A DNA stretch of 24,481 bases from a virus, in IMG/VR virus record IMGVR_UViG_3300030108_001051, positions 1 to 24,481 of that record; one strand, 5' to 3'. The notes under the pieces are model-generated. The model was not told the origin of the DNA, did not search any database, and saw nothing but the letters and a program-made list of their open reading frames with translations. Shown here in pieces: positions 5,569 to 22,361 of this stretch (position 1 is its first letter; every line of letters starts with the position of its first letter). The position numbers and the translations under genes were made by a program.

Positions 5569-5940
5569 ATGTCAGATGAGCTAAAGACGGATGGCTTTAA
5601 TCTTGAGGATTATCAGATTAAAAGAGGTCCAGAAAAGAAAACTATAACTATTGAAGAAACAGGAGCTTCGTTTGAAGTTACTGTCAAAGACATGTCTTGG
5701 AGCAAAAGAAATCAATTGATTTCAAAGTGTATGAAATTTGATAACAAAGGTAATACAAGTTTCCAAGCAGATGAATATGTTAGAAATTGTTTAAGGGAAA
5801 TGATAGTGAACGCACCTTGGGGAGCTACCACAGAAACATTTTTATTAAGCATAGACACTAGATTAGGTGGGGCATTAGAAAAATTAGTTCCATCAGCATT
5901 TGGTGAAGACGATAAGGTTGACCAAGTAAAAAAAGAGTGA
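5569..5940 (+). CDS. Tail assembly chaperone, upstream frame (gpG-like)
   Basis: The start is ATG 5569 with AGGAGG at 5556-5561. This 123-residue protein lies between the major tail protein and the tape measure, the canonical place for the lambda gpG-type chaperone that coats and holds the tape measure during tail polymerisation. It has an N-terminal strand region (TITIEETGASFEVTVKDMSW) and then helices. The ORF ends VKKE-stop directly after a seven-A run (5928-5934). In its reading frame the run is read A AAA AAA, so slippage by one base enters the next ORF and yields a longer G-T-like protein. No tape-measure-binding motif can be seen by eye; identification rests on position and the frameshift arrangement. 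Confidence 0.75.
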   Translation: MSDELKTDGFNLEDYQIKRGPEKKTITIEETGASFEVTVKDMSWSKRNQLISKCMKFDNKGNTSFQADEYVRNCLREMIVNAPWGATTETFLLSIDTRLGGALEKLVPSAFGEDDKVDQVKKE

Positions 5941-5978
5941 TGAGGGTTCTGAGGGGAACATCCGACCTGAATCCTCAT
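5928..5978 (+). promoter_or_regulatory. Programmed -1 ribosomal frameshift signal (slippery run plus stem-loop)
   Basis: Seven A residues at 5928-5934 are read A AAA AAA in the upstream chaperone frame, which is a slippery heptamer. After a 5-nt spacer (GAGTG) a 10-bp stem begins: ATGAGGGTTC at 5940-5949 pairs with GAATCCTCAT at 5969-5978 (nine Watson-Crick pairs and one G-U, 19-nt loop). A shift of -1 after codon 122 continues in the frame of the downstream ORF as KK-RVMRVLRG and ends at 6155, giving a 195-residue fusion. This is the architecture known for lambda G/GT tail chaperones. Confidence 0.8.
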
Positions 5979-6155
5979 GAAATGGTGACCTATAGATATT
6001 GGATGGTTGTGCTGTCGCTACTAAAAGATGGTATACCTTACGGAGTCATACAAGAGGCTACCGATGATGAGATATCTATCTTAATAGGTATAAATGCGGC
6101 AATGAAACAAAAAGAACATGAAGACATGGAGAGACAAGCCGCTAAGGCTTATTAA
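5940..6155 (+). CDS. Tail assembly chaperone, downstream frame (gpT-like part of fusion)
   Basis: This frame encodes about 71 residues with the C-terminal helix ISILIGINAAMKQKEHED and an Ala/Lys/Glu end, like the T part of G-T tail chaperones. An ATG at 5940 overlaps the upstream stop (TGATG), and a GTG at 5937 is also possible, so independent initiation cannot be excluded. The more likely route is the -1 frameshift at 5928-5934, because the frame is open from the slippery run and the stem-loop follows at the right distance. In lambda the T domain recruits tail tube subunits while the G part binds the tape measure. The tape measure gene starts 6 nt after this stop. Confidence 0.75.
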   Translation: MRVLRGTSDLNPHEMVTYRYWMVVLSLLKDGIPYGVIQEATDDEISILIGINAAMKQKEHEDMERQAAKAY

Positions 6156-7983: not shown

Positions 7984-10900
7984 ATGTCTATAACAGGTAG
8001 TGCTGCTGGTAGAGCATCCTTACAATATTTTAACGGTTCAAACTATGTAGAATTACAAACTCCAAGTGGTGCAAACGCACTTTTAGATTTAGTAATTACT
8101 GATACATTAAGTAATCCTGTTAATCTACAAGCCACGTTAATTAACAGACCTGCTGACCCACGCTCAGGAACTGCTTCATCAACTACAGGTAATTTAACAG
8201 GTATTCTTACAGAATTTATGAAGATACGATGTATTGATTCATATTCACAACAAGTTATTTTTTCAGGTTGGATTTATGATTTAGATGAAAATTATACTCT
8301 ACAAAGTGGAAGCACAATTAGTCTTGAAGCATATGATAACTTAGCAGAGTTGCGTGATTATAAAACTGATAACATGATTAAGATTGACACAAGTCAAAGT
8401 ACACATAACTCAAGAAGTGAAGTAATACAAGAACTTATTAAAAGGTCTAGTAAAGACAATATTGCTACATCAGATAGTAATCAATACGAAGCGTCTACTC
8501 AAAACTTTGCAACTAATATGTTAGGTGATTTAACACCAAAAGATGCAGGTAAGACTGTTTTAAATGCAATAAAACATCTAGCACAAACAGAACCAATAGA
8601 TGCATCAACTCAAAATCATAGTTTTGGAAACGATTTTTATTTAGCATCCCAGTTTACTTCTACAGCAACATCTGCAACACAAACACCTATGTTGAATTAT
8701 TTTAAACGTGGTTCAAGACCAATGACAAGTGGAAGTGACATGGATACCTTTGGTATGAAAATACAATTCCCACTTAGCAATAGTGATGTTGAAACAGGTC
8801 AAACGAGAAACATGTTACCTGATTATGATTTTAAAAGAGATAGAGCATCCGTTCATAGTGATGTTCACGTAAAATTTAGTGACAGGGGTGGAGCAGGTAA
8901 AGCATCAGGTTCAGATACACCTAGTGCAGGACAAACTAAAAAGATGAATCCACTTCAACTCACTAGATTAAACATGACTGCTATAAATGGACAGCTTAAT
9001 TATTTAGGCTCACCTATTGCTGGAGATTTAACAGTAAACGGACAATTTGTTTACTCTGATACAAAGGATGGATTCGTGCATGCATTTGCAGCATCTAAAG
9101 TACACACAAAAACAAATGAGTCATCTACACAAACTATAGTTTTAGATAAAGAACCATCTGCTGATTGGCTGGTGCGAATTGGAGCATCTGACCAACAAAT
9201 AGAAGCTGAAGCAAATACAACTTCAAATGAGAGTCATAAATTTGGATGGTTACGATTTAACAACGTGCCTGAAAATGATGATAGTAACAGTGTGCCTGGT
9301 GGTAAAATGCGAATCGCAGGTTTATCACTCAGTGGTCAAGAGTTAACAGTAACCACAGACACTAATCATTTTATGCAAGCTGGTGACAGAATTATGATGC
9401 AAGGTTTAAATCTAGGCACGGGTGGTGGAGCTATTAGAACAAATGCACAACTATACAAAAAAGGTGCAGGAGATAGAGTTATTAGTAGAGAAGGTCAATT
9501 AGGTGCTTTGTTCAATAAATTAAGAACTGGTGTATCTGATGATTTAGCAAACGGTGTTAGTGATGAATTAATGTACGTAGACAAAGAACACGGACTTACT
9601 ACATCAAACTATGGTTCTCACCTATTTTTAAAGAATGAATCAAATCAAGAGGAAACAGTAAAGATAAGAAAGATTTTTACTTCAATTCCAGATGATGGTG
9701 ACATGCCTGACAACTCTGCTCAATTAACTAACACAGCCACAAACATTCAAAACTTAGACCACTTCGACTTAGTTGAAATACAAAGAGCAATGCATTCAGG
9801 AACAGAGCGTGAACACAGCGTGAGTAATGGAGCTGGTCTTACAACTGCTGGTAGAGCGGCCCCAATTCCACTTTTTGCAGGCATTAGGACGGCAAATTTA
9901 TATGCACAAGAAGGTGGTGTTGGTGGTTTATTTAAAACAAACATATTTAGAATAGACAGAATTGTAACTGATACACAATTTGTAATTCGTGTAAATGCGG
10001 CTAATATTACATTTTCAGGTGGGCGATTAACTACAGGTTTTCTACATGCAGCTATTGATGACGCTGCTGATACAACTCAATTTAGTATTGCTGTAAACGA
10101 TGGTTCTAACGATAGATTAACAAAACCTCACCTTGCAGTAGGCATGATTATAAAAATAGATAGTGAAGAAATGTTGATTTCAGCCGTAGGTTCAGCAGGA
10201 AGTGGCACTGATTTTGCTACTCAAGTAACAGTAACTCGTGGGCATAATGGCACGACAAGAGCATCACATAGTGAAAATGCTGAAGTAACCACCATGGTTG
10301 CACATGTTATTCCAATCATTGGAAGAGTGCAACATCAAACAACTACAAGTTCAGTTACAAATGGGGAAGACTTTATTATTATATCTGACCAAGCTAAAAA
10401 TACACCGACTACAGGAAACTTTAGATTGTATGGTTTACAGTCAGGTAAATATGCAACGTTTAACTCAAGCACAACTGCCGTAAGTCATAGAGATAGTTTT
10501 GGATTAAATAAACCTATGTTTATGACAATTAATCAAATGAATAGACAACCTGACTCAATTAGAGGGGCATTTGCAGAAGCTTTGGGAGATGGGTCATTTG
10601 AAGAAACAAGAGCTGGAACAGTTCGTATAAATAACTTTGCGTATCAATTTATTGATGGACATGTTCATGGAGTGGCTAGTAGTGGAACGGTTGTTACAAC
10701 TAGAAATTTTGCAGATAACGCAACAATTAATCCTTTAAGTTATGGACTAAGAGTTGGTATGACTGTATGGAAATTGACAAGTGCAACTAATTTAACTAGA
10801 GCGGCATATGGATATGTATCTGCTGTAACAGCAACAACATTTACAGTTACTTTAAATAGTGGGACATTTGCAGAAGATGATAAATTTAGGATGTTTATAC

Positions 10901-12315
10901 CACTTAGACCAGGACATTTAGTTCAATTAAAAAACAAATTATTAAAAATAGATACAACAAGTGATAATACTTTTGGTGACAATCAAACAGACTATGTTGT
11001 TAATCAAGTTAAATATGTTGAACAACCAGGAACACAACAATCATCTATCTCTGTTGTAAAACAAGAAGGTGCTGTTGATTCACCAGGTAATGTTTACAAA
11101 AATATTCAAGGTGCAACAGATGATAATGCATTTAGTGCATTTGAAGATACACTTGTTAATCCATCTACAGCATCAACTGACATCACTATTGAAGCAGGCT
11201 CTCATGCGAGTGTGTCAGACGTAACTGCTGCAGCTAATGACGGAACAACACTTGAGGGTAAATTGTTTCACAAGGGACAAGCAATACATTGGACAAAGGG
11301 GACTCTAAGAGTTGATGGTGAAGAATATCAAATACCTGCTGGTAATAGCACAGATGGGGCTACTTTTGATGGTACAACATTATCTGCTGGAACTTTGATG
11401 TCAATTACAGATGCTAACGGAGCCACTAATTTAGAAACAGGGCCTGCTGACGCAACAGGAATACCTGATGAAAGATTTGTGTTATTTGCTGATTTAAAAC
11501 AATCAAAATTTATAGCTTGTTCAGTATCAAATTTTGAAGGCAATGTAACAGATAAAGGTAGTAAATTAATTGTTGGATATGCTAGAGCAGCTAGAGATGC
11601 AGGCGTAAGTAATGCAGGACACGAGGCGGCATTTGAATGGAAGATTAATAATGAAGTACACAATGAAATGAGTGTAAGAGGTGGTAAGTCATATGAGGGT
11701 CAAGGATTTGGACTAGGAAATGCTACTTTACCAATACTTGCTTTTGATGGGGATGAAACAACAGGTATTTTTTCTTCTGGGGATGGTCAAGTTAATGTTA
11801 CTTTAAACGGAGTTAACAGAATACAATTTGGTTCTTCCTCTGGAGGTAGTAAAGAAGAATTTGCGTTTGCACATCATTGGTTACCTTTTAGTGATGATTC
11901 ATTTGATTTAGGTTTTAGTACATCTGCGTTTAGATGGGATGAAATTTTTGCAACACACGGTTCTGTTCAATCATCTGATGAAAGAAATAAAGAAGAAATT
12001 GCTAATATTGATTTAGGTTTAGAATTTTTATTAGCTTTAACACCTAGAACATTTAAATGGAAAAGAAAAAATGTAACAAAGCATCATCCTGAGACAGGGG
12101 AAGCTTATACAAAGCCTGACGAAAAACATTATGGATTAATAGCACAAGAAGTAATTACTGTTTTAAATAGTATGGGCATATCTGATTTAGATGATTTTGG
12201 TGGAATTACAGGTAACTCAGATGAATATGGGGCAAGATATGTAGAATTTATAGCTATTCTAATTAAAGCTATACAAGAACTAACAGCAAGAGTAAAGGCG
12301 TTAGAAGATGGCTAA
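7984..12315 (+). CDS. Large tail hub/fibre protein with C-terminal Peptidase_S74 chaperone
   Basis: The start is ATG 7984 behind AGGAGG (7974-7979). This 1443-residue protein is the largest in the window. Residues 1-120 (LVITDTLSNPVNLQATLIN, FSGWIYDLDENYTLQSG) resemble the hub/tail-tip domain of tail-associated proteins. The middle contains beta modules, including one at about 700-775 with VGMIIKIDSEEMLISAVG and TVTRGHNGTTRASHSE. Residues about 1240-1300 (AFDGDETTGIFSSGDGQV) lead into a Peptidase_S74 domain with SDERNKEEI, where Ser1331 and Lys1336 match the Ser-x4-Lys dyad of self-cleaving trimerisation chaperones, and end in a helix (AIQELTARVKALE). The family folds trimeric fibres and then releases itself. 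Receptor binding or cell-surface degradation is inferred. The gene overlaps the next by 8 nt. Confidence 0.8.
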   Translation: MSITGSAAGRASLQYFNGSNYVELQTPSGANALLDLVITDTLSNPVNLQATLINRPADPRSGTASSTTGNLTGILTEFMKIRCIDSYSQQVIFSGWIYDLDENYTLQSGSTISLEAYDNLAELRDYKTDNMIKIDTSQSTHNSRSEVIQELIKRSSKDNIATSDSNQYEASTQNFATNMLGDLTPKDAGKTVLNAIKHLAQTEPIDASTQNHSFGNDFYLASQFTSTATSATQTPMLNYFKRGSRPMTSGSDMDTFGMKIQFPLSNSDVETGQTRNMLPDYDFKRDRASVHSDVHVKFSDRGGAGKASGSDTPSAGQTKKMNPLQLTRLNMTAINGQLNYLGSPIAGDLTVNGQFVYSDTKDGFVHAFAASKVHTKTNESSTQTIVLDKEPSADWLVRIGASDQQIEAEANTTSNESHKFGWLRFNNVPENDDSNSVPGGKMRIAGLSLSGQELTVTTDTNHFMQAGDRIMMQGLNLGTGGGAIRTNAQLYKKGAGDRVISREGQLGALFNKLRTGVSDDLANGVSDELMYVDKEHGLTTSNYGSHLFLKNESNQEETVKIRKIFTSIPDDGDMPDNSAQLTNTATNIQNLDHFDLVEIQRAMHSGTEREHSVSNGAGLTTAGRAAPIPLFAGIRTANLYAQEGGVGGLFKTNIFRIDRIVTDTQFVIRVNAANITFSGGRLTTGFLHAAIDDAADTTQFSIAVNDGSNDRLTKPHLAVGMIIKIDSEEMLISAVGSAGSGTDFATQVTVTRGHNGTTRASHSENAEVTTMVAHVIPIIGRVQHQTTTSSVTNGEDFIIISDQAKNTPTTGNFRLYGLQSGKYATFNSSTTAVSHRDSFGLNKPMFMTINQMNRQPDSIRGAFAEALGDGSFEETRAGTVRINNFAYQFIDGHVHGVASSGTVVTTRNFADNATINPLSYGLRVGMTVWKLTSATNLTRAAYGYVSAVTATTFTVTLNSGTFAEDDKFRMFIPLRPGHLVQLKNKLLKIDTTSDNTFGDNQTDYVVNQVKYVEQPGTQQSSISVVKQEGAVDSPGNVYKNIQGATDDNAFSAFEDTLVNPSTASTDITIEAGSHASVSDVTAAANDGTTLEGKLFHKGQAIHWTKGTLRVDGEEYQIPAGNSTDGATFDGTTLSAGTLMSITDANGATNLETGPADATGIPDERFVLFADLKQSKFIACSVSNFEGNVTDKGSKLIVGYARAARDAGVSNAGHEAAFEWKINNEVHNEMSVRGGKSYEGQGFGLGNATLPILAFDGDETTGIFSSGDGQVNVTLNGVNRIQFGSSSGGSKEEFAFAHHWLPFSDDSFDLGFSTSAFRWDEIFATHGSVQSSDERNKEEIANIDLGLEFLLALTPRTFKWKRKNVTKHHPETGEAYTKPDEKHYGLIAQEVITVLNSMGISDLDDFGGITGNSDEYGARYVEFIAILIKAIQELTARVKALEDG

Positions 12316-12885: not shown

Positions 12886-13431
12886 ATGACAATACCTATA
12901 GATAATAATTTAATCACGACATGGGAACCTAAAATCCAAGGGTTAGTTAATAAATATTATGTAAATGGTATGGATAAAGATGACCTAATCCAAGAACTTA
13001 GAATGGTGTTGATGAGATGTGCTGAAAAATACGACACTAGTAAAAGCACAGCTATTTTTCACACTTATGTGCACCGAGCTATGATAAATACTTTAATTAC
13101 TTTAATAAACAAAGCTAACAAACTTCCAGAAGTACTTAGCTTTGATAAAACATTTATTTCAGTCACCGATAGTGAACAGAATCCAAACGAATTGCAGAAG
13201 GCCCTTGAAGACCCTAACGCTGAAGATTTTTCTAATTTACTCTTGCTAGATGACATATTATCTGATAATAATGATACATTCACAGAAAAAGAAAAAGCAT
13301 TTATTGCTAGTCGTGTAGACGGACTTACGATGGAAGAAATAACAAATGACTTAGGTGAGTCATCTTATAGAGTAAGACAGAACTTAAAAGAAAAATTGAA
13401 AGCGTATATTGATGGAAAACAAAAAGTTTGA
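12886..13431 (+). CDS. Phage-encoded sigma-70-like RNA polymerase sigma factor
   Basis: ATG 12886 directly follows the TAA of the HTH gene. The 181-residue protein shows region 2 at residues about 16-78 (LVNKYYVNGMDKDDLIQELR, then CAEKYD, then FHTYVHRAMINTL), the usual core-binding/-10 recognition layout. Region 4 is at residues about 131-175 (TEKEKAFIASR, LTMEEITNDLGESSYRVRQN), containing a helix-turn-helix for the -35 element. No region 1.1 or 3 is evident, so it resembles small ECF-like or phage late sigma factors. It would redirect host RNA polymerase to phage promoters, most plausibly late ones. Its location between structural and replication modules fits a switch. The cognate promoter is not identified. 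Confidence 0.8.
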   Translation: MTIPIDNNLITTWEPKIQGLVNKYYVNGMDKDDLIQELRMVLMRCAEKYDTSKSTAIFHTYVHRAMINTLITLINKANKLPEVLSFDKTFISVTDSEQNPNELQKALEDPNAEDFSNLLLLDDILSDNNDTFTEKEKAFIASRVDGLTMEEITNDLGESSYRVRQNLKEKLKAYIDGKQKV

Positions 13432-20500: not shown

Positions 20501-21425
20501 AAAAAAATTAATTGACCAGTTATTAGGAAACAAGAAATTAAACATTGTAAAAGGTGATGATAAAGATTTTGAATATAATCGTATTGAATTTGGTATACCT
20601 AATTTAGATAAGCTGACAGGTGGGGGCATACCTAAAAAAAGAATGACTTTGATATATGGTCCTACCAACGTGGGTAAGTCTTATCTTGCATCACAGATAT
20701 GTGCCAATGTACAACGTGAAGGTGGTATAGCTGCTTGGATAGATACAGAACTATCTTGGGATGCTAATTGGATGAGTAAGTGTGGATTAGATACCAGTGA
20801 AATGTTATTGTCTCAACCTGAAAGTGGAGAACAAGCTTTTGAAACTATTGTAGAGATGATGAATGCAGGAGTTGATGTAATAGTATTAGACAGTATTGCA
20901 GGATTAGTGCCTGCTCAAAATCTTGATGAAGACTTTAGTTTTAATCCAATGGCGTGGCAAGCACGATTTGTAAACTCGGCATTACCTAAAGTGATGAACT
21001 CTTTAAGACAAGGAAGTGCATTTGTAGCAATCAACCAAGTAAGGTCTAGTATTGGTCCTGTTGCTTTAGCTAATATGCCTGGTGGTTTAGCCCAAGGTTT
21101 CTTTTCACACTTTCTACTGGAAGTAAAAAGAAGTGGGTGGCTAACAGATAAAGACCAAAAAGTTGGTTTTGATATGGAAGTGCGATTACGAAAAACTAAA
21201 GTAGGTGGTAGTAATTGGTCTTCTGCTATTGTGCCATTTAGAGTTGATGGTGGTATTGACGTGATTGAAAGTTACATGAGAGACGGTATCACACAAGGCA
21301 TAATTAAAAAAGCAGGGGCTTGGTATACCTTTGGTGAAGACAAAGCACAAGGCATGAATGGTTTGAAAGAACTTATAGTGTCTAAACCTGAACTATTAGA
21401 AATATTAAAGAATGACGTTACCTAG
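20487..21425 (+). CDS. RecA/UvsX-like DNA recombinase
   Basis: The frame is open from a GTG at 20436, but TTG 20487 is preferred: AAGGAG (20476-20481) lies 5 nt before it and the protein then begins at a charged helix. Length is then 312 residues. Key motifs are Walker A GPTNVGKS, the catalytic-Glu strand AAWIDTELSWD, Walker B VDVIVLDSIAGL, and FVAINQVRSSIG, whose Asn-Gln is at the usual sensor position. MAWQARFVNSALPKV and a glycine-rich loop (PGGLAQGFFSHF) resemble RecA/UvsX loops. This ATPase would form filaments on ssDNA and promote strand exchange for recombination-dependent replication. It overlaps the next gene by 14 nt. Confidence 0.8.
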   Translation: MEKDRKKLIDQLLGNKKLNIVKGDDKDFEYNRIEFGIPNLDKLTGGGIPKKRMTLIYGPTNVGKSYLASQICANVQREGGIAAWIDTELSWDANWMSKCGLDTSEMLLSQPESGEQAFETIVEMMNAGVDVIVLDSIAGLVPAQNLDEDFSFNPMAWQARFVNSALPKVMNSLRQGSAFVAINQVRSSIGPVALANMPGGLAQGFFSHFLLEVKRSGWLTDKDQKVGFDMEVRLRKTKVGGSNWSSAIVPFRVDGGIDVIESYMRDGITQGIIKKAGAWYTFGEDKAQGMNGLKELIVSKPELLEILKNDVT

Positions 21426-21729
21426 AGATTATACCCAGCAAGAAAAATTAGTTGAGCAATGTTTACAAGTAACAGGTCTTAGATATGATAATCAAGTAGA
21501 ATTTGGTAAATATACTGTAGATTTTTATATAGATGAAATAAAAACAGTTGTTGAAGCTGATGGAATCTATGGACATTTAAGAAAACGTGACCGTAAAAGA
21601 GACGATGAATTATATGAGTTGGGTGTGGAACATATAATACACATTAAAGAAAAAACACATCAACGAATATGTGAGGAACTATGGCAGGCATTAGACAAAT
21701 TGGAGCCGTTGGAAAACGAAAAAAAGTAA
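21412..21729 (+). CDS. Vsr/DUF559-like endonuclease
   Basis: The ATG at 21412 overlaps the recombinase stop by 14 nt. The 105-residue protein has the DUF559/very-short-patch-repair-like core: Asp37 in TVDFYI, then VVEADGIYGH with Glu48 and Asp50, then RKRDDELYELGVEHIIHI. These fit the PD-(D/E)XK variant of the family (D...E-x-D...H). Vsr-type nucleases nick or cleave DNA. In phages such small enzymes may process recombination intermediates or act as homing-like nucleases. The specific substrate is unknown. It overlaps the Cas4-like gene by 49 nt, an unusually long overlap here. Confidence 0.65.
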   Translation: MTLPRDYTQQEKLVEQCLQVTGLRYDNQVEFGKYTVDFYIDEIKTVVEADGIYGHLRKRDRKRDDELYELGVEHIIHIKEKTHQRICEELWQALDKLEPLENEKK

Positions 21730-22361
21730 AAAAACAACGACAAGATAAATGGCTAATTAATAAATTAGACGATATGCTCGCATCTAAAAAACGTAATGGT
21801 ATGAAGGGTAAGTTCCATGCTTCAGTAATAGGAAATCCTTGTGATAGATATTTATACTTAGCTTATAACGGTTTACTTCCAGATGTGCCTTTAAGTGCAC
21901 GAGTTCAAAGAATCTTTGATAATGGTAGTTATCTAGAGTATAGAATGAAAAAATATTTTGAACGAATGAATATTTTAATTAAACAAGAAGTCCCTTGTAA
22001 ATTTGACAATCCTATAATATCAGGACGTATAGATTTTATCTTAAGACATCCAAAATTAAACACGGTTTTATTAGAACTTAAATCTATAAAGGGTTCATTA
22101 TTTGATGAATTAGATGGCCCTCAAGAAACGCATGGTATTCAAGCACAAGTATATCTACATCTTAATAAGTTAGGTATTAACACAGGTTATGTATTATATG
22201 AAAACAAAGATAATCAAGAACTTAAATGTTTCAGAGTAGAAAAAGACGATGATGCATTCGCAAAAATTTTAGATAGATGTTATACTATTATGTCATTAAG
22301 AGCTGCTCCGACAGAATGTAGTGGCGAATTTTATTGCGATTGTAGAAAGGTGAAATTATGA
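21681..22361 (+). CDS. Cas4/RecB-like PD-(D/E)XK exonuclease with possible Fe-S cluster
   Basis: ATG 21681 has GAGGA five bases upstream. The 226-residue protein has a basic N-terminus and a PD-(D/E)XK core: SGRIDFIL with Asp118, LLELKSIKG with Glu132 and Lys134, and the QAQVYLHL helix (Gln154, Gln156, Tyr158) of Cas4/RecB-type nucleases. Four cysteines bracket the fold: Cys54 in GNPCDRYLYLAY, and Cys213, Cys219 and Cys221 near the C-terminus. One plus three is the pattern of Fe-S cluster nucleases such as Cas4 and AddB, though the C-terminal spacing here (C-x5-C-x-C) differs. It probably resects DNA ends for the RecA-like recombinase. No Cas1 or Cas2 or repeats occur in the window, so a CRISPR role is not suggested. 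Confidence 0.7.
   Translation: MAGIRQIGAVGKRKKVKKQRQDKWLINKLDDMLASKKRNGMKGKFHASVIGNPCDRYLYLAYNGLLPDVPLSARVQRIFDNGSYLEYRMKKYFERMNILIKQEVPCKFDNPIISGRIDFILRHPKLNTVLLELKSIKGSLFDELDGPQETHGIQAQVYLHLNKLGINTGYVLYENKDNQELKCFRVEKDDDAFAKILDRCYTIMSLRAAPTECSGEFYCDCRKVKL

Follow-up and report, generated by a model that had tools for sequence, protein, structure and literature searches.

Frameshifting of the lambda G/GT type is widely conserved across long-tailed phages (PMC5009743). A_AAA_AAA belongs to the listed frameshift heptamers, and cassette tests gave about 10% shifting at it (PMC3711429). In E. coli it is less shift-prone than A_AAA_AAG (PMC5009743). We analyzed a junction of this kind in a viral DNA of 24,481 nt (the whole stretch analyzed, hereafter the window), where an initial annotation had proposed that a -1 frameshift on a run of seven A residues joins two tail chaperone ORFs (ORF1 and ORF2). 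The junction carries what we consider a lambda G/GT-type -1 programmed ribosomal frameshift signal, very probably used, that joins ORF1 to its -1 extension.

Gene neighborhood and chaperone identity

The chaperone pair is placed between a tail-tube-like gene and a tape-measure gene (Table 1), the former recognized by gene order and by a sub-threshold match to Pfam Phage_tube_2 (E = 5.5e-5, 23.3 bits vs. a cut-off of 27); phage records yielded no match to the tail-tube-like protein. ORF1 is akin to tail assembly chaperones by both profile and predicted fold, the profile matches being weak: E = 4.6e-4 against PHROG tail assembly chaperone families, reaching 1.2e-6 among relatives, and a match to Pfam Phage_TAC_5 below the cut-off of that family. 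The structure model of ORF1 is of low confidence (pLDDT 64). Its best Foldseek match in the viral library was an uncultured virus protein, followed by chaperones of Haloarcula tailed virus HHTV-2 and Bacillus phages, with Mu FS-gp41 lower; the Foldseek search of the PDB returned nothing significant for ORF1 (best match YqbN, 3klu, E = 0.3). For the -1 domain (ORF2), no significant family match was found in the PHROG or Pfam profiles. By analogy with lambda G/GT, ORF1 and ORF2 would act as tail chaperones.

The tape-measure protein is only 413 aa long, and the ORF after the chaperones in one relative (L006) is 263 aa; a short tail is predicted if this gene is the whole ruler. A tail spike-like protein of 1443 aa (7984-12315) carries, at its C terminus, a Peptidase_S74 (chaperone of endosialidase) domain. 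A protein with Sigma-70 region 2 (12886-13431; Pfam E = 7e-10, PHROG E = 6e-16), perhaps a phage sigma factor, is encoded between the tail genes and those for replication. An archaeal virus, first suggested by a weak haloarchaeal virus match, was rejected as the source, because the sigma-factor-like protein, a DnaB-like helicase, and the DNA polymerase point to a bacterial phage. The DNA polymerase matches many phages, the best among the matches listed at about 25% identity. A contig scan of a prokaryote genome collection found no relatives and no prophage or host link.

Table 1 Features of the junction and its flanking genes in the window
Feature	Position	Strand	Basis
Tail-tube-like structural gene, 584 aa	3796-5550	+	Sub-threshold Pfam Phage_tube_2; gene order
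ORF1, tail assembly chaperone, short (gpG-like) product, 123 aa	5569-5940	+	PHROG; predicted fold
Slippery heptamer A AAA AAA	5928-5934	+	Zero-frame codons AAA AAA; read from sequence
-1 frame extension after slippage, 73 codons + stop	5934-6155	+	Open frame; gpT-like by position
5-nt spacer GAGTG	5935-5939	+	Sequence
GTG 5937 and ATG 5940, possible independent ORF2 starts	5937-5942	+	Window and near clade
Zero-frame stop TGA of ORF1	5938-5940	+	Sequence
5′ arm of candidate stimulatory stem, ATGAGGGTTC	5940-5949	+	Sequence, RNA fold, helix scan
3′ arm of candidate stimulatory stem, GAATCCTCAT	5969-5978	+	Sequence, RNA fold, helix scan
Tape-measure protein gene, 413 aa	6162-7403	+	PHROG tail length tape measure protein, E = 1.1e-8

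Slip site and reading frames

The zero-frame codons across the junction read GTA AAA AAA GAG TGA (within 5920-5980), and the A run, exactly seven long, ends three bases ahead of the ORF1 stop codon; an in-frame X XXY YYZ heptamer stands upstream of the zero-frame stop. From the slip site the -1 frame runs uninterrupted into ORF2 and ends at the stop codon 6153-6155; counting 122 codons to position 5934 and 73 codons from 5934 gives a fusion of 195 aa. Heptamer, spacer, open -1 frame, and fusion length all agree with the initial annotation.

In-frame A7 is no rarity in a window this rich in AT, several others being present in ORFs of at least 100 aa (e.g., at 1230, 13813, 21719, 21728, and 23657), and the A7 at the junction is therefore unconvincing taken alone. 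A Cas4-like exonuclease ORF (21681-22361) has two in-frame A AAA AAA heptamers near its start, nine bases apart (within 21681-21735), which overlap the end of the preceding ORF (21412-21729). It is the comparison with relatives that carries the argument and, at the level of sequence, settles the interpretation.

Conservation of the slip site and the -1 frame in relatives

Three scans yielded a final list of 72 distinct IMG/VR loci that encode an ORF1 homologue (38-98% identity). One (L097) was set aside because it had no match at the junction end, leaving 71 relatives reaching the junction; a non-redundant subset of the related loci comprised 54. Ahead of the ORF1 stop, the window and all relatives reaching the junction (71/71) have an in-frame X XXY YYZ heptamer. 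In the relatives it is A AAA AAA in 64 and another canonical heptamer in seven, namely T TTT TTC in three (L091, L092, and L094), T TTA AAA in two (L067 and L096), A AAA AAC in one (L055), and T TTT TTA in one (L090). For background, the related loci have an in-frame A7 at 20 of their 64,098 remaining codon positions, and of 144 further ORFs in these loci, 3 carry an in-frame X XXY YYZ heptamer within the final eight codons. The initial annotation had named loss of the A run and stem in relatives that keep the two ORFs as counter-evidence; for the slippery site no such loss is seen, the site being either retained or swapped for another canonical heptamer in every one of the 71.

The heptamer opens into a homologous -1 ORF in each of these 71 relatives. 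An alignment of this ORF from 20 relatives shows the open -1 frame to be conserved at the protein level from the shift site onward (KKRxxxFLRG), with R3, W25, L32, and G35 at least 90% conserved.

One could suppose that ORF2 is a separate gene, translated by coupling at the stop/start overlap GTGATGA (5937-5943) with no frameshift needed, given that the window and its near clade have GTG and ATG codons right at the ORF1 stop and that -1 codon 5 is an ATG in several further relatives. We consider this highly improbable, because 31 of the 54 non-redundant loci have no ATG, GTG, or TTG ahead of -1 codon 12 and hence no start before the conserved part (L030, the nearest relative outside the clade of 93-98% identity, is among them), because conservation of the -1 frame begins right at the heptamer (KKR...), and because conservation of the heptamer would then be without reason. 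Judged from the reading frames, a shift is required in the relatives that lack a -1 start codon. Since ORF2 has its own possible starts in the near clade, independent initiation could add a separate product there beside the frameshift fusion.

RNA structure downstream of the slip site

The arms of the candidate stem form 10 pairs, including one G-U, as the initial annotation had described, and an equally strong helix with the same geometry occurs at 0.1% of other window positions. An RNA folding calculation of the kind suggested by the annotation gave -17.3 kcal/mol for the 55 nt from 3 nt past the A run, with a small inner helix predicted inside the hairpin loop. This value is equalled by 0.3% of other window stretches, or 2.1% after GC correction. 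The fold is stronger than expected under a synonymous-codon null (z = -3.8, P about 0.01) but only borderline against dinucleotide shuffles (z = -1.97, 11/200).

Over the 54 non-redundant loci, the 55 nt from 3 nt past the heptamer showed more stable folding than other parts of those loci (mean rank 0.27, KS test: P = 7e-10). They also folded more stably than their synonymous recodings (mean z = -1.41, t-test: P = 3e-8), with 24 of the 54 at P of 0.05 or less in the latter comparison; because the loci are related, these P values overstate independence. Stem identity is complete in four near relatives (93-98% identity). L030 (74% identity) retains 8 of the 10 pairs and shows one compensatory change from G-U to U-A, which was equalled in 119 of 500 shuffles and is thus suggestive, not statistically strong. 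In more distant relatives a strong stem is often present but in another register, as in L035, L038, L046, L050, and L055, with arms like GTCTTTCT and AGAAAGAC. No downstream structure was apparent in L036, L041, and L045 when folding was compared with the same loci and with synonymous recodings, so the stem is not universal. A fixed-register covariation count over 12 divergent relatives was uninformative, because the stem register differs between them.

A candidate downstream RNA stimulator, an element common but not obligatory for this class of signal, is present in the window and not in every relative, and judged from the predicted folds the stem is a genuine signal at the level of the group. 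The expectation that relatives would conserve the stem together with the A run stands for the near clade, where the one compensatory change also falls, but fails for many lineages, in which the stem lies in another register, and for some, in which it is apparently absent.

At the tenth -1 codon, GGG is used in 19 of the 33 loci with glycine at that position (among the 54), against 14% of background glycine codons, a comparison that is uncorrected for kinship. The window has GGA there (5955-5957), and in several loci the Gs of this codon are unpaired in the predicted fold. We put forward, as a tentative and on balance unlikely reading, that the slip site is nearly fixed while its stimulator turns over by register, and that a G-rich codon pair ~25-30 nt downstream may be an extra stimulator.

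Ribosomal or transcriptional slippage

The frame could also be changed by RNA polymerase realigning on the A run during transcription, rather than by the ribosome. The homopolymeric run would suit such a process, and in four relatives (L048, L075, L081, and L082) it is 8 or 9 long, so that transcriptional slippage could contribute there. Transcriptional slippage is, however, usually linked to runs of n > 7 (PMC3711429), whereas the run is exactly seven in nearly all relatives, and the replacements in seven relatives (A AAA AAC, T TTA AAA, T TTT TTA, or T TTT TTC) are canonical heptamers for the ribosome without being homopolymers of seven. The run length of seven, from which few relatives depart, and the exchange for other canonical heptamers together favor the ribosome over RNA polymerase, and selection for downstream RNA folding also suits the ribosome better. 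We therefore regard RNA polymerase slippage as highly improbable. That the A run arose by chance in an AT-rich genome and that the two ORFs encode unrelated products, as the other in-frame A7 runs in the window might suggest, can practically be dismissed, being contradicted by a slippery heptamer in 71/71 relatives and by the conserved -1 reading frame.

Discussion

Gene order, the chaperone profile and fold matches, the heptamer in all 71 relatives, and the missing -1 starts in most loci support -1 frameshifting between the tail chaperone ORFs, as the initial annotation had it. The sequences show the anatomy of the signal, its conservation, heptamer swaps that keep slippability, a requirement for shifting in relatives that lack a -1 start codon, and selection for downstream folding. 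That shifting occurs in this phage, and at what rate, we infer.

Most ribosomes would read ORF1 to its stop codon and produce the short chaperone. In a minority, tRNA-Lys on AAA AAA in the P and A sites would re-pair one base back, with the hairpin about 5 nt downstream presumably slowing the ribosome; reading would then resume at AGA (5934-5936) in the -1 frame and yield the 195-aa fusion. If the lambda system is a guide, both forms, short and long, would cover the tape-measure protein and bring in tail-tube subunits, at a set ratio to each other.

A large, diverse, and uncultured phage group would thereby be added to the cases of tail-chaperone frameshifting. Natural heptamer swaps and stem-register changes within one gene pair are usable for studies of how frameshift signals evolve. 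For annotation, ORF2 is best described as a frameshift extension of ORF1, which in most relatives is not callable from a usual start codon. The novelty implied by the initial annotation, an all-A heptamer combined with a stimulator, was overstated, because all-A heptamers have already been reported for phage tail genes (PMC6256562). The best remaining novelty may be that the stem changes register while the slip site stays nearly fixed, together with the favoring of GGG as tenth -1 codon.

A parallel in heptamer is found in Paenibacillus larvae phages, for which the same all-A heptamer AAAAAAA and the same gene pair were predicted from sequence; the passage on AAAAAAA names no stimulator and no comparative test (PMC6256562). 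HHTV-2 gp47/gp48 provide the sole named phage protein match (27% identity, E = 4e-3); the predicted fold is similar, and tail tube, chaperones, and tape measure follow in the same order, but HHTV-2 is an archaeal virus, and the annotation of its chaperones gives two distinct ORFs that a gap keeps apart. E. coli dnaX combines A AAA AAG with a downstream stem-loop (PMC5009743), and the window likewise has an A-rich heptamer with a stem-loop. dnaX differs in being a cellular gene, in having AAG in the A site, and in its upstream Shine-Dalgarno-like stimulator; inspection of the base composition table by eye revealed no such element here. In comparison with lambda G/GT, no protein sequence similarity is claimed, the downstream hairpin is a feature of the window, and the heptamer is A AAA AAA instead of that of lambda. 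The initial annotation had recognized the lambda G/GT logic with a different heptamer, and we likewise assign the signal to the lambda G/GT type.
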